Positions 8,912 through 13,313 of a stretch of 64,000 nucleotides of DNA are shown here, piece by piece. This DNA is from Alicyclobacillus fastidiosus (GTDB lineage Bacteria; Bacillota; Bacilli; Alicyclobacillales; Alicyclobacillaceae): positions 1,736,001-1,800,000 of the forward strand of contig NZ_CP104067.1 of NCBI RefSeq assembly GCF_026651875.1, written 5' to 3'. The translations under genes and the position numbers were made by a program. Within the stretch, counting starts at the first letter, position 1; each line of letters starts with the position of its first letter. The notes under the pieces are model-generated. The model worked only from the letters and a program-made list of their open reading frames with translations, was not told where the DNA came from and made no database searches.

Positions 8912-8988
8912 ATGTTTGTCGGACGACGAAGGTGACCACGACTGGCGAGGATTGATCTCGGTTGCGCATAATCCGTCGGCCCCCTACA

Positions 8989-9095
8989 CACAATAACGCT
9001 CGTAGGGAGATGATGTGTAATGGAGATGACCGACTGAGGTGTCCTCAAGACCATCGACGACTTACAGAAGGAGACCGCCACGCGCGGTCTTTTTC
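8989..9095 (+). repeat. Dispersed ~107-nt element, copy 1, with mini-ORF and terminator
   Basis: This stretch is repeated at 13206-13313 with about four fifths identity. Both begin CACAATAA, carry a purine-rich ribosome site, then GATGATGTGTAATGGAGATG, a conserved CAAGACCATCGACGACTTAC and a terminal hairpin GACCGC/GCGGTC with five T (9073-9094). An ATG at the right distance from the ribosome site opens a five-codon frame (MEMTD) that stops in both copies. It is likely a short transcript. Function unknown. Bases 9096-9511 after it hold nothing recognisable. Confidence 0.6.
9073..9094 (+). terminator. Terminator of repeat copy 1
   Basis: GACCGC, loop CACGC, GCGGTC, TTTTT. Confidence 0.75.
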
Positions 9096-9511
9096 ATGTT
9101 CGGACCGAAGTTGTGTCGCTCCAGGTGCGTTCAACGTGCGGATGTCAATAAATTCAGCGTCATTCGGTCGATGCCAGAGAATATTTTATTCGCTACTGCG
9201 CAGTATTCATTTTGAAAATTTGATGTTCCCCGTAAAGTGGGTGTACTCCGAATGGTTTTGGTTGTAAATTCTTCAGGCATTGGGTGTAGTTTGCCAACTC
9301 GTTGGTCCGCTCGTGGGACCCCTGTTTGGAGGTCTGCGAAATGCTTCACAATTCCCCCGCTTTCTACCACGTGCCCGTGTCTTCACATGAAAAGGCACCG
9401 CATTGGTGCGTGTATCACGGAGGCGAGGGTTTTAATTTTAGAATCGGGCACGATATCGAAAAAGCAGCGCAGGGGATTGTCGGCGGGGTTCCATTTCGAG
9501 GGGGACAGAAA

Positions 9512-10162
9512 ATGCATTCGCCACACAGACGGAAAAACCTATTTTCTTCCGGAGTGTTTTTAATTTCCTTTTTGATCTCGTTCGCCATATTTGTTGACAA
9601 ATTAGAGCTACATAAGTTGCTGGGCTTCGATATGAAAATCATTCGCGTGGTACAGGCTAGGATTGATCGCTCGAACACACGGCTGATGAAGTGGTTTACT
9701 TTCCTTGGGTCTCCGTTCTCCGTCTCAATGTTGGTCTTATTTTCCACAATTGTTCTGTATTTCAAAGGGAGAAGGCGGGAAGCTGCCAGCCTGTTGGTCG
9801 CAAATGCTGCAGGTGTCGGGTTCAATGAAGTCCTAAAGTTCATATTTCGCCGTCGTCGTCCGGACATTCATCGACTGGTTGTTGAACATGGGTATAGTTT
9901 TCCGAGCGGGCACTCCATGGGTTCTGTGATCTATTACGGAAGCATCACCTATTTTATATGCAGATCGATTCAGAATTCTTTTTGTAAGGTGCTGACCTCG
10001 GCTGTCGGTATGTTCATGGTGTTCATGACTGGCATGAGTCGAATTTATCTAGGGGTTCACTATCCTAGTGACGTCGTATCTGGTTATGCGGCTGGCGGCG
10101 CTTGGTTGAGTGCGTCCATAAAAGGGTTTAATGCCGTTTTACCGAAGCAGAAGCGGTCTTGA
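9512..10162 (+). CDS. PAP2-superfamily membrane phosphatase
   Basis: 216-residue membrane protein of the type-2 phosphatidic-acid phosphatase superfamily, which dephosphorylates lipid phosphates such as undecaprenyl pyrophosphate or phosphatidylglycerophosphate on the outer membrane face. The three phosphatase motifs are intact: KFIFRRRRP, SFPSGHS and SRIYLGVHYPSD. About five to six membrane helices. ATG 9512 follows GAGGGGGA; the frame is open back to 9290, but the extra ~70 residues do not resemble the family. It is a single-gene unit. Whether it acts in peptidoglycan lipid recycling (BcrC-like) or another lipid step cannot be told. Confidence 0.9.
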   Translation: MHSPHRRKNLFSSGVFLISFLISFAIFVDKLELHKLLGFDMKIIRVVQARIDRSNTRLMKWFTFLGSPFSVSMLVLFSTIVLYFKGRRREAASLLVANAAGVGFNEVLKFIFRRRRPDIHRLVVEHGYSFPSGHSMGSVIYYGSITYFICRSIQNSFCKVLTSAVGMFMVFMTGMSRIYLGVHYPSDVVSGYAAGGAWLSASIKGFNAVLPKQKRS

Positions 10163-10245
10163 AGTGCCGCTTCTGGAAATGGAAATGATGGAAATTCAAG
10201 CAGCCCTCCGTCCATTTCCAACCCGTTTGAACACGGTGGGGATAC

Positions 10246-10446
10246 TTAAACCTCAAAGTCGTGGTGTGTGATCTGAATGTACTCGTGCGGTATCAAGGAC
10301 ATCACATATTCAATTGGGGTATTTTTATTTTTTATGTTCATGCGATAATTCCATAACACAGCAAATGGTGTCACCCCGAAAATGATGCACACAAGTACGA
10401 TTGTCAACTGTTTCGCCTCACTCGCTTGGTTGCCCATCAGCCCCAT
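10246..10446 (-). CDS. Possible small membrane protein
   Basis: Up to 66 residues from ATG 10446 (or 63 from ATG 10437). One membrane segment (LTIVLVCIIFGVTPFAVLW) followed by a basic and then His-rich tail (HEYIQITHHDFEV). The ribosome site is poor (GGAATGGGG before the second ATG). The hydrophobic-then-basic layout is that of a real small membrane protein, but no family is recognised and the start is unsure. Confidence 0.35.
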   Translation of the reverse strand: MGLMGNQASEAKQLTIVLVCIIFGVTPFAVLWNYRMNIKNKNTPIEYVMSLIPHEYIQITHHDFEV

Positions 10447-10660
10447 TCCAACGCTGGTGAGCTGTGACGACCACCTCTGTCGTCCTGCCAAAACAAGTGT
10501 ACTTGCGCCATATGAATGCAGTGTGGAATTTTTGTTAAGTGAACACACAGTTATATGTAAAGAATGAAGCGGACTCCAGAGAAGTAACTGGGTAACTGCT
10601 CGTCCCACATTGGAAAGATTTTTTATTTTTGTGGCACATAAAACACAGGAACCACCAATG

Positions 10661-10697
10661 ATAAGAAAATACTATTGTTCCTATTAGTGTTTCTTAT
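10661..10697. promoter_or_regulatory. Inverted repeats overlapping the TSUP promoter (candidate operator)
   Basis: ATAAGAAA (10661-10668) is perfectly mirrored by TTTCTTAT (10690-10697), and inside them a second pair, AGGAAC (10647-10652) with GTTCCT (10677-10682), interleaves. The outer arm abuts the -35 of the promoter at 10697, so a repressor bound here could control the exporter gene. Confidence 0.4.
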
Positions 10698-10725
10698 TTA
10701 CAAATCTGTCTTGCGTCTTTATAAT
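10697..10725 (+). promoter_or_regulatory. Sigma-A promoter for the TSUP exporter gene
   Basis: TTTACA (10697-10702), 17-base spacer, TATAAT (10720-10725), in an AT-rich stretch 43 bases before the start codon. Confidence 0.75.
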
Positions 10726-10767
10726 CCCGGTAAAACGTATATATATAGTTGGGAATGAGACTGGATT

Positions 10768-11532
10768 ATGACCATCGGTATTGTGATCATGGGATTACTT
10801 GTTGGTACTTTAGTGGGACTTACAGGTGTGGGAGCCGCTTCGTTGTTGACGCCTATCCTCGTACTGATGGGTATTCATCCTTCAATCGCTGTTGGCACCG
10901 ATCTCGTGTACAACTCTGTAACTAAGCTCTTTGGTTTTGTTCAACATGCGAGACAAAAGACGGTGAATTATCCACTTGTAAAATACTTAGCATTTGGGAG
11001 TATTCCAGGTGCAGCGGCTGCGGTTGTCGGTCTACATGTATTTAGTGGCTGGTACCATAATGAAGAACAGGTAATTCAATATATATTGGGGTTTGTTTTG
11101 ATGGTTGCCGCCGTTGGAACCTTAATTCGTGTACTATTTGACAGTCGTTTGAAAGTGAACCACCTCCAATCCAAGCCCTTGGAAGAAAAAGTTGGTCTGA
11201 CCATTTTCATTGGCGTCATATTTGGGTTTATCGTTGGGCTAACTTCTATTGGATCCGGTTCATTGTTCGCCCTGGCAATGCTGTATTTGTATCGTTTGAG
11301 TGGGCCCGAAATGGTGGGCACCGATATTGCTCACGCATTCCTCTTGGCAACTGTAGCAGGTGCGCTGAACGCAGGCTTGGGACATGTGAATTACACCTTG
11401 GTAGGTAATCTTTTGGTTGGTTCCATCCCAGGCGTCGTGATCGGTAGTGCGCTTTCCACGAAAGTACCCTCCCGGCCAATTCGTCTGGTCATGTCGGTGT
11501 TAATTTTCTTGAGTGGGTTAAAATTGGTCTAA
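10768..11532 (+). CDS. TauE/SafE (TSUP) family anion exporter
   Basis: 254-residue membrane protein of the TSUP family, about eight helices in two internally repeated halves: GLLVGTLVGLTGVGAASLLTP (in two parts GLLVGTLVGLTG and VGAASLLTP) in the first and FGFIVGLTSIGSGSL in the second, each holding the Gly-rich G-x-G-S/A motif. The family moves sulfite, sulfoacetate, thiosulfate or other sulfur-containing anions. Substrate is not evident. It has its own promoter with interleaved inverted repeats and stands alone. The ribosome site is weak (GGGAATGAG). Confidence 0.88.
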   Translation: MTIGIVIMGLLVGTLVGLTGVGAASLLTPILVLMGIHPSIAVGTDLVYNSVTKLFGFVQHARQKTVNYPLVKYLAFGSIPGAAAAVVGLHVFSGWYHNEEQVIQYILGFVLMVAAVGTLIRVLFDSRLKVNHLQSKPLEEKVGLTIFIGVIFGFIVGLTSIGSGSLFALAMLYLYRLSGPEMVGTDIAHAFLLATVAGALNAGLGHVNYTLVGNLLVGSIPGVVIGSALSTKVPSRPIRLVMSVLIFLSGLKLV

Positions 11533-11564
11533 ACGGGGAAGTCAATGCCCAATGGATGGAGCAA

Positions 11565-11589
11565 CCGCCAGCCCCACCTACGCTGGCGG
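11565..11589 (+). terminator. Hairpin after the TSUP gene
   Basis: CCGCCAGC and GCTGGCGG pair perfectly around a nine-base loop, 32 bases past the stop. No T run follows. Confidence 0.5.
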
Positions 11590-11809
11590 CCATGGCGGCC
11601 ACAATCGCCGCCCTTCCCGAGAACACGAGACGTAGTATATGCAGTCTTAGGTAAAAAGTATGTCGACGTGTCGGGTCTGAAGATTGCGAATATAGAAAGG
11701 GTAGCACACGCTGCCTTTGTGTGTATTTCAGAATCATCACAGTTTATCCGGGTTGAATTAGGGTACTAGGGGAAAGTAAGGTTGCAGCCACAAACCTGGA
11801 GGGAAGCGA

Positions 11810-11980
11810 ATGACAAAATCAAAGGGGCTGGTTCGGCCACGCTGGGGCCTTTATAAGAACGGTGAACTGGTGCTCGTGCACGACAAAAAGGAGATGCTTG
11901 AGGGAAATGTACGGGAATTTATGAAACAAGAAGGGAGTCGCTCGAGCACGTTTGAAATTAAGCCAAACACGATTTTTTAA
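11810..11980 (+). CDS. Small hypothetical protein (56 aa)
   Basis: ATG 11810 follows GGAGGGAAG (11799-11807). The product begins MTKSKGLVRPRWGLYKNGEL, continues with a VLVHDKKEML stretch, and ends FEIKPNTIF. Basic, soluble, with alternating beta-type residues in the middle. No family recognised. The ideal ribosome site and compact frame support it as real. Confidence 0.6.
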   Translation: MTKSKGLVRPRWGLYKNGELVLVHDKKEMLEGNVREFMKQEGSRSSTFEIKPNTIF

Positions 11981-12206
11981 CTTGACTAGAACAATGGTAC
12001 TGCATAGGGCTTAGCTGTTGGATAGAAAATACCGCCACAGCCGATGCCTGGCGGTCAAAGATGAGGGATGGAAAGAAGGAGTGTTAGCTCCATAAACCCA
12101 GTCTCGCCGACGTTTTGGTAGTTCAAACGCAAACATCGTCTTACGGAACTTGCAGAAGTGATCGCCACTCGAGCGACATGTCACGCAAGAGTGGCCCTTA
12201 ACACCA

Positions 12207-12410
12207 TCAGTCGAGAGGTTCAATGGTCACTCGCACACGACGCCCCTCTAAATTCAATAATGAACTTTGCAGACTACGCCCTTGGTGATTCCATATGTCG
12301 CTGCAAAGCATACTCATTCCATCCTCAGTCGTGATCCAATATTGGGACACTTCTCCTTCGATATAGGACGACATCACATACAATCGGTGATCCTCTCTCA
12401 TTTCGGACAT
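12207..12410 (-). CDS. Small hypothetical protein (67 aa)
   Basis: ATG 12410 follows GGAGGG (12418-12423 on this strand). The 67-residue product (MSEMREDHRLYVMSSYIEGE at the start, RRVRVTIEPLD at the end) alternates polar and beta-forming residues (VSQYWITTEDG), as in a small beta-sheet protein. No membrane segment or known motif. The frame is also open 12 codons upstream, but the ribosome site decides the start. Confidence 0.6.
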   Translation of the reverse strand: MSEMREDHRLYVMSSYIEGEVSQYWITTEDGMSMLCSDIWNHQGRSLQSSLLNLEGRRVRVTIEPLD

Positions 12411-12612
12411 CAAAATCCCTCCATTCGTACTGTTGTGCTGCTTCATACATATGCGCTGTTTGTGGATCGTAATTCACCATTAACGCGTGATAAATACGCC
12501 ATTCGAGTGATTGTTACGTGTTTTTCCGGGGAGATTAAATGGAAATCAGGTGGTGCGTTCCGAACGACATTGTTCAATTTTCATATCGAACGTCATCGTT
12601 TCGCATCAATCT

Positions 12613-13161
12613 TCATCCGGAGATAGACTGATACACGCGATTTGTCTGGATCCTCAGATTAAAAATCGCTAATAATACGATGGTTACTGCGGACAAGATG
12701 GCATGAAATATGACGTTGACACTACCTGAGGCGATAACAATACAGCCCCTGAAAGCCAAGCAATGATACCCACTTTCCAGCGAGACGGAGTATGATTCGG
12801 AATCACGTGTCTCGCTCCGATGCGGGTTTTTGAGACAGGAAATTTCATAGCGTATACAACGGTTGCGATGACTACCAGGAAAGTACACACAAGCAGTGGC
12901 GCGGGGGCGACGAAGTTGTGGTATAGATGTATAGGAATACCAAGCATTGATTCCGAGTGCCATTCCATAATCACCAGATCCCAAACTTGGGAAGTGTGGA
13001 TTGACTAAACTTTGGGTTGCCAACCCCTCCTCCAAAACGCCAAAGGCCGCAGCTAACATCAATACACCGGGGGTACCAAGATTTTTCCGACGCGCTATTT
13101 TACGAATGAGGTAAAAAATTCCTCTGCCTGAGGATAGAACTGAGGTGAACGCGCGTGAACC
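12613..13161 (-). pseudogene. Frameshifted multi-spanning membrane protein gene
   Basis: Three stretches in different frames read together as one membrane protein. 13161-~12925: FYLIRKIARRKNLGTPGVLM, AAAFGVLEEGLATQSLVNPHF and GMALGINAWYSYTS. ~12920-12750 in the next frame: HLYHNFVAPAPLLVCTFLVV, IATVVYAMKF and KVGIIAWLSGA. ~12740-12613 back in the first frame: VIFHAILSAVTIVLLAIFNL. At least two frameshifts and no clear start mark it as decayed. The EEGLATQS motif next to a helix hints at a transporter or membrane-protease-like parent, but no family is assigned. Confidence 0.5.
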
Positions 13162-13205
13162 ACGACACTGCCCTGCAGACGGTGTATAAACCGTGATTCC
13201 CTGCG

Positions 13206-13313
13206 CACAATAATGGTCGTAAGGAGGATGATGTGTAATGGAGATGACCGATTAGGGGATTTTCAAGACCATCGACGACTTACAGGAAGAGGCCGCCATG
13301 TGCGGTCTTTTTC
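13206..13313 (+). repeat. Dispersed ~107-nt element, copy 2, with mini-ORF and terminator
   Basis: Second copy of the element at 8989. It has a better ribosome site (AAGGAGG at 13215-13221), one extra base before GATGATGTGTAATGGAGATG, the same five-codon frame MEMTD closed by TAG instead of TGA, the same CAAGACCATCGACGACTTAC block and a terminator (GGCCGC/GCGGTC, TTTTT, 13291-13312). Conservation of the whole unit at two distant sites suggests a functional transcript or a small mobile or duplicated unit. Confidence 0.6.
13291..13312 (+). terminator. Terminator of repeat copy 2
   Basis: GGCCGC, loop CATGT, GCGGTC (one G-U pair), TTTTT. Confidence 0.7.

Follow-up and report, generated by a model that had tools for sequence, protein, structure and literature searches.

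Two short units in a 64,000-nucleotide (nt) stretch of the Alicyclobacillus fastidiosus chromosome (NZ_CP104067.1, positions 1,736,001 to 1,800,000; hereafter the window) were found to belong to an uncatalogued small RNA that occurs across the family Alicyclobacillaceae. Each unit combines a forespore-type promoter, a conserved rod-like hairpin, and an intrinsic terminator, and both the family and its promoter class are well supported. For its role, we tentatively favor, at a little under an even chance of being right, a free-standing forespore RNA that would engage ribosomes through a hairpin-gated mini open reading frame (mini-ORF), with the ribosome role being what we infer from its parts.

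The window units and their relatives

A first-pass annotation, made from the letters of the window, had described two units at 8989-9095 and 13206-13313. All of their shared parts were present at these positions, including a ribosome-binding site (RBS), the codons ATG GAG ATG ACC GA[CT], a stop codon, an invariant 20-mer, and terminators ending at 9095 and 13313. While these right-hand ends were correct, the homology begins further upstream, at the -35 elements (8966-8971 and 13184-13189), and the first ~13 bases of the units as originally drawn are promoter, opening with the -10 element, rather than RNA. In a local alignment of 8966-9095 with 13184-13313, 112 of 136 columns were identical, with 19 mismatches and 5 gaps, and the BLAST E value between the units (8.6e-29) indicates that their likeness is not due to chance. 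The mini-ORF common to both reads ATGGAGATGACCGA[CT]T[GA][AG]. The predicted RNA is ~95 nt long for the window copies and longer in other genera. The features of the two units are as follows.

8966..8971, + strand: unit 1 -35 element GCATAA, sigma-G-type, identified from the units' consensus and by reference to ssp promoters
8989..8995, + strand: unit 1 -10 element CACAATA, sigma-G-type
9002..9095, + strand: unit 1 predicted RNA, hairpin and terminator, with the start placed ~7 nt past the -10 element
9005..9014, + strand: unit 1 Shine-Dalgarno core GGGAGATGAT, hairpin 5' strand
9020..9037, + strand: unit 1 mini-ORF ATG GAG ATG ACC GAC TGA (MEMTD*)
9046..9065, + strand: unit 1 invariant block CAAGACCATCGACGACTTAC, the 3' strand pairing with the 5' strand
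9073..9095, + strand: unit 1 intrinsic terminator
13184..13189, + strand: unit 2 -35 element GTATAA, sigma-G-type
13206..13212, + strand: unit 2 -10 element CACAATA, sigma-G-type
13219..13313, + strand: unit 2 predicted RNA, hairpin and terminator, from a predicted start
13222..13232, + strand: unit 2 extended Shine-Dalgarno core AGGAGGATGAT
13238..13255, + strand: unit 2 mini-ORF ATG GAG ATG ACC GAT TAG (MEMTD*)
13264..13283, + strand: unit 2 invariant block CAAGACCATCGACGACTTAC, hairpin 3' strand
13291..13313, + strand: unit 2 intrinsic terminator

The genes for small acid-soluble spore proteins (SASPs; ssp genes) are classic targets of sigma-G, whose promoters are characterized by GNATR and CATNNTA-like -35 and -10 elements at a spacing of 17-18. 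Across the units, the promoter consensus was GNATA-N17/18-CANNNTA, as before the spore-protein genes of the host genome. The host possesses a sigG gene, and its SASP genes bear the same elements, such as GTATAA-N18-CACAATA upstream of L077. A strict pattern (GNATR-N15-19-CANNNTA) was found just upstream of 35 of the 53 units, compared with 0.26 expected from dinucleotide shuffles; the matching units had spacers of 17 or 18 only, and most of those failing the pattern were off by one or two bases. The window spacers, measured between the end of G[CT]ATA and the -10 element, are 18 (unit 1) and 17 (unit 2). The units carry both the elements and the 17-18 spacing of the sigma-G regulon, from which we infer that they are probably transcribed in the forespore by sigma-G RNA polymerase. 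Because the sigma-F and sigma-G consensus sequences overlap, forespore is a safer label than sigma-G alone.

The host genome and its relatives were searched with a covariance model (R1) and then with a sequence model of the promoter and 5' half (R2). It was noted that the host genome (6.04 Mb) contains not two copies, as counted in the first-pass annotation, but six good chromosomal ones, along with a decayed copy on the 68.5-kb contig C3 and a divergent copy of a second type (type B, described below). Every one of the 15 genus genomes had the element, as did 36 of the 41 Alicyclobacillaceae genomes examined, and its core was found in named records of Alicyclobacillus suci, A. contaminans, A. 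pomorum, and A. mengziensis. No convincing copy was returned by the models from 18 genomes of a sister family of the same order. Among 398 genomes drawn from across the class, only two outside Alicyclobacillaceae passed E 0.001 (G382 and G260), and both were rejected as members, resembling a sigma-G-type promoter and RBS before ordinary protein genes; about 360 other genomes of the class thus gave no convincing copy. Rfam 15 yielded no match to the units, the only overlap being a chance-level one with STnc390 below the cut-off (E 0.91). The plasmid and phage collections contained no match to the unit either, on which basis a mobile element was rejected, with the flanks compared only unsystematically. 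This spread over many copies and genomes, together with the units' own promoter, conserved fold, own terminator, and lack of a fixed neighbor, bears out the earlier suggestion of a small regulatory RNA family.

Some copies depart from the common form. It had been held that further copies lacking the mini-ORF or the terminator would count against such a family; two units, G13b and G4b, do lack the mini-ORF, yet their promoter, hairpin, and terminator are retained. Two decaying copies were also noted. The copy on contig C3 (L028) has a broken Shine-Dalgarno core with ATG GTG ACA ACC GCT TAG still in place, and a copy in the related genome G007 (L024) has lost its -10 region.

Fold, types, and mini-ORF

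The units were divided into two layouts. Type A follows GTAAGGgAGGcTGATGTGyGATGGtgACG, a variable middle, CCTTAC, and the terminator. Type B, found in the genus itself only, follows cAGGAGGTTGATGTnCCGC..aACGA..TCGT..TGTGGTnGTGTCAACaGCCT and the terminator; it keeps the Shine-Dalgarno core and the rod and has no start codon at the type-A site. The type-B relative in the host genome (L124; G000:C1:3999350-3999760, minus strand) retains the promoter, Shine-Dalgarno core, rod, and terminator without the mini-ORF start, and it has an orthologue in G007 (L125). Several species possess tandem modules within one transcript, with A-A arrangements in the A. mengziensis group (L068, L074, and L101) and B-B in L046, while G005 carries two B modules with apparent transfer RNA (tRNA) genes between them.

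From the predicted start, the computed fold is one long imperfect rod-like hairpin closed by GUAAGG/CCUUAC and followed by the intrinsic terminator. The mean z score of the minimum free energy (MFE) was -3.2 for type-A bodies (n = 38) and -3.9 for type-B bodies (n = 15), the folded bodies excluding the terminator save for a few type-B bodies with an overlong cut. Several Watson-Crick pair types were seen at positions -13, -12, -2, +6, +7, and +11 of type A (at -2, CG 11, GC 3, and UA 3; at +6, UA 21, CG 8, and GC 2) and at +5 of type B (AU 5, GC 5, and CG 2), with partners read from per-sequence MFE folds, a method that favors the detection of pairs. In a narrower, within-genus alignment, the covariation counts for the whole structure were just modestly above column shuffles. 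Alignment-based covariation was strongest in the terminators, where changes occurred on both sides of the pairs. Two Shine-Dalgarno purines (-5/-4) are mostly unpaired in an internal loop that is kept in types A and B, and the apical loop differs from genus to genus. As the invariant CAAGACCATCGACGACTTAC forms the 3' strand of the rod, its conservation is explained without coding.

Along its 5' strand, the hairpin carries an extended Shine-Dalgarno sequence that hardly varies (AAGGAGG-N-UGAU). In nearly every copy, this sequence can pair with the tail of 16S ribosomal RNA (rRNA), GGATCACCTCCTTTC, which has 15 occurrences in the host genome, through two blocks of 4-7 bp with a small bulge between them. 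Predicted energies were -12 to -16 kcal/mol compared with about -8 to -12 for shuffles, and the pairing holds also in copies with a deviating core (GGGAAGGUGAU and GGGAGGGUGAU). A similar sequence was observed in genus g5, where a short spore-protein-like ORF (L126 and L127; MPRNN...HLVSNASNALEQMKYEIATEFG) has the RBS AAGGAGGTGATGTGAAATG, near the RNA's 5' core minus the extra base. On this resemblance, the RNA may have originated from the 5' region of such an ORF.

A start codon (ATG, once TTG) was found at a fixed place, 8-9 bases past the G of the core GATG, in 38 of the 41 type-A units. In each of these 38, the frame is closed after 4-14 codons by TGA (17), TAG (14), or TAA (7). The stop ranges over codons 5 to 15 and is placed differently in different genera. 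The mean length of the mini-ORF across 12 genera is 6.9 codons, compared with 17.7 in shuffled sequences, and none of 1000 shuffles was as low. The +2 frame is mostly open in type A; the +1 frame is shut early by the fixed motif GGTGA and offers no independent control. In G13b and G4b, the start and stop were lost together. The combination of a strong Shine-Dalgarno sequence, a start, and a stop within a few codons under selection is present in type A and absent from type B, and statistical selection on the type-A mini-ORF is shown. The encoded peptides vary widely in length and sequence (MEMTD, MATH, MLPQAYVSRVSA, and MIKDITSNSTKTSS), and judging from these sequences, which are too different, the peptide is apparently not the product that matters. 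A longer ORF from an upstream ATG (ATG TGY GAT GGT GAC..) was also considered and rejected; read by eye, it has 3 or 10 codons in some genera, is long in others, and gives no common protein.

Candidate roles and known RNAs

In the ribosome-engaging reading that we tentatively favor, each unit would be a forespore transcript of sigma-G polymerase. Its extended Shine-Dalgarno sequence, on the 5' side of the rod, could form pairs with 11-12 bases at the 3' end of 16S rRNA. In type A, a start codon would follow about 10 nt downstream of it and a stop after 4-14 codons. Were the hairpin opened or invaded, a 30S subunit could load, and a mini-ORF of unimportant sequence would be translated and terminated, with the ribosome released or re-initiating. 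The RNA would act by ribosome engagement and not through a functional peptide, either occupying or holding back ribosomes in the maturing spore or protecting itself from nucleases. A more specific version, which we regard as rather improbable, is that this family-wide forespore RNA captures or parks ribosomes by means of its hairpin-gated Shine-Dalgarno sequence and peptide-irrelevant mini-ORF, in several copies and tandem modules, as a translation brake at dormancy or a primed ribosome store for germination. At the RNA level, little is understood of how the forespore shuts down translation or of the state of ribosomes in dormant spores. If ribosome engagement holds true, a small RNA kept in almost every member of the family would provide a simple, deletable handle on this question.

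Several observations weigh against ribosome engagement. The RBSs of the host's spore-protein genes are at least as strong (-12 to -17 kcal/mol), and since the Shine-Dalgarno sequence of the units is no stronger, a decoy is not distinguished from ordinary initiation. The Shine-Dalgarno core is also buried in the predicted hairpin, and the conservation of UGAU could, in the modeled fold, come from pairing inside it. The shuffles behind the mini-ORF statistic correct just partly for shared ancestry, and the mini-ORF is absent from type B and from two type-A copies. Finally, the early stop could be selected merely to keep ribosomes from unfolding an untranslated small RNA (sRNA).

In two other explanations, the ribosome would be incidental. 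The units could be trans-acting antisense sRNAs of the forespore. The rod would then serve as a scaffold for stability, target mRNAs would be bound by either the variable middle or the purine-rich 5' strand, and the mini-ORF would be a mere by-product. Their own promoter and terminator, variable middle, several paralogues per genome, and lack of a fixed neighbor are all consistent with this. However, the near-invariant part is a Shine-Dalgarno sequence, ill-suited to specific mRNA pairing, the apical loop changes between genera, and selection on the start and stop is left unexplained. We consider an antisense sRNA unlikely, if still a serious contender. Even in that case, this family of spore formers, which spoil food, would share a conserved sporulation RNA that Rfam lacks. 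Less likely again is an RNA-protein scaffold, where a protein would bind the rod at its purine internal loop and the early stop only keeps ribosomes drawn by accidental start signals from unwinding the rod and terminator. The mostly unpaired -5/-4 purines in an otherwise paired rod, their retention in type B without a start codon, and the duplicated modules of some transcripts would fit such a scaffold, but it has no candidate protein, and a start codon at a fixed distance would be more easily lost than guarded.

The remaining alternatives carry much lower probability. A forespore-made functional micro-peptide would account for the start kept in 38 of 41 type-A units and for the M-V/A/I-T-x-T shared by many peptides; it is very unlikely given only 4-14 residues of widely varying sequence, absent from type B, G13b, and G4b. 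The forespore sRNA CsfG has CU-rich loops that could pair with the GGAGG core, and the idea of the units as a sponge for it gains something from a CsfG-like element in these genomes, below the Rfam cut-off, with a conserved stretch containing UCCUCC. The predicted duplexes of CsfG with the units were on the whole no better in energy than those of shuffled units, and we hold this to be highly improbable. Scarcely credible are two ideas raised in the first-pass annotation, a leader (or attenuator) and a gene expressed by readthrough (recoding). The stop codon is real, while the silent or conservative in-frame changes past it hold for the pair of window units only, and the block in question is the 3' strand of the hairpin. 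Readthrough is contradicted by copies in the same genome with a 1-base deletion just past the stop, by 1-base indels between close orthologues that break the frame, and by a stop that lies anywhere from codon 5 to 15. The tiny ORF of the proposed leader is indeed selected in type A, but its peptide is not conserved and it leads into no consistent gene. What lies downstream differs from unit to unit in gene family, distance, and strand, which argues that the units are not leaders.

We compared the units with known RNAs. Marchais et al. reportedly found in 2011 that the expression of CsfG in B. subtilis is controlled by forespore sigma factors. CsfG (RF00516) occupies one conserved locus by ylbH and has CU-rich loops (PMC3574147). 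Like CsfG, the unit RNA is small, intergenic, free-standing, and conserved across spore formers; unlike it, the unit RNA has a purine-rich 5' strand and a mini-ORF and occurs in several copies at other loci. The RF00516 covariance model gave no match on either strand, be it at the window units (up to E 10) or at 16 further loci (up to E 1), and the units lie in unrelated places, not at a single locus by ylbH, with the CsfG-like element elsewhere. With no Rfam match at the units, membership in CsfG and an antisense of CsfG were both ruled out, and CsfG is the nearest functional analogue, yet a different RNA at a different locus. The CsfG-like element of the host (L141; G000:C1:3813700-3814200), found in most relatives, falls below the RF00516 cut-off and has the CU-rich conserved stretch CTTCCTCCGGTTTTCTCCTCTCCCAG; RF00516 may be too narrow for Alicyclobacillaceae.

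The espADB six-codon mini-ORF and the axe-txe minigene likewise combine a strong Shine-Dalgarno sequence with an ORF of few codons whose peptide is unimportant, and the effects reported for such cases include a bound ribosome that stabilizes the transcript and repeated re-initiation (PMC8708949). These minigenes lie in the leaders of real genes, whereas the mini-ORF of the units stands by itself, within a structured RNA that has a promoter and a terminator of its own. In the literature as far as searched, strong-SD (Shine-Dalgarno) mini-ORFs acting by ribosome occupancy were encountered in leaders and none as a free-standing RNA. SR1 of B. subtilis is a dual-function sRNA encoding the small protein SR1P (PMC8501984). 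Like the units, it is an sRNA of sporulating Bacillota that contains a small ORF and a Shine-Dalgarno sequence, while differing in that the unit ORFs have 4-14 codons of unconserved sequence.

Neighboring genes

Within the window, a PAP2 phosphatase gene follows unit 1, and a TauE/SafE exporter gene is located between the two units. In G007, a relative of that exporter gene lies upstream of the unit 2 orthologue and the two copies are 10 kb apart, indicating that the unit pair is older than the split between these genomes. Elsewhere in the host genome, copies c1201 and c5197 adjoin paralogous proteins of ~100 amino acids (MRIFVVSYEL..., no Pfam match; L004:1640-1960 on the minus strand and L005:1170-1463 on the plus strand), which suggests, from the sequences, that the RNA was duplicated together with its neighbor gene. 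It was also noted that tRNA gene clusters adjoin the RNA in several species (L060, L061, L046, and L121), and that an Rfam-reported selenocysteine tRNA gene (L068:1164-1256, minus strand) lies near a tandem copy in the A. mengziensis group.

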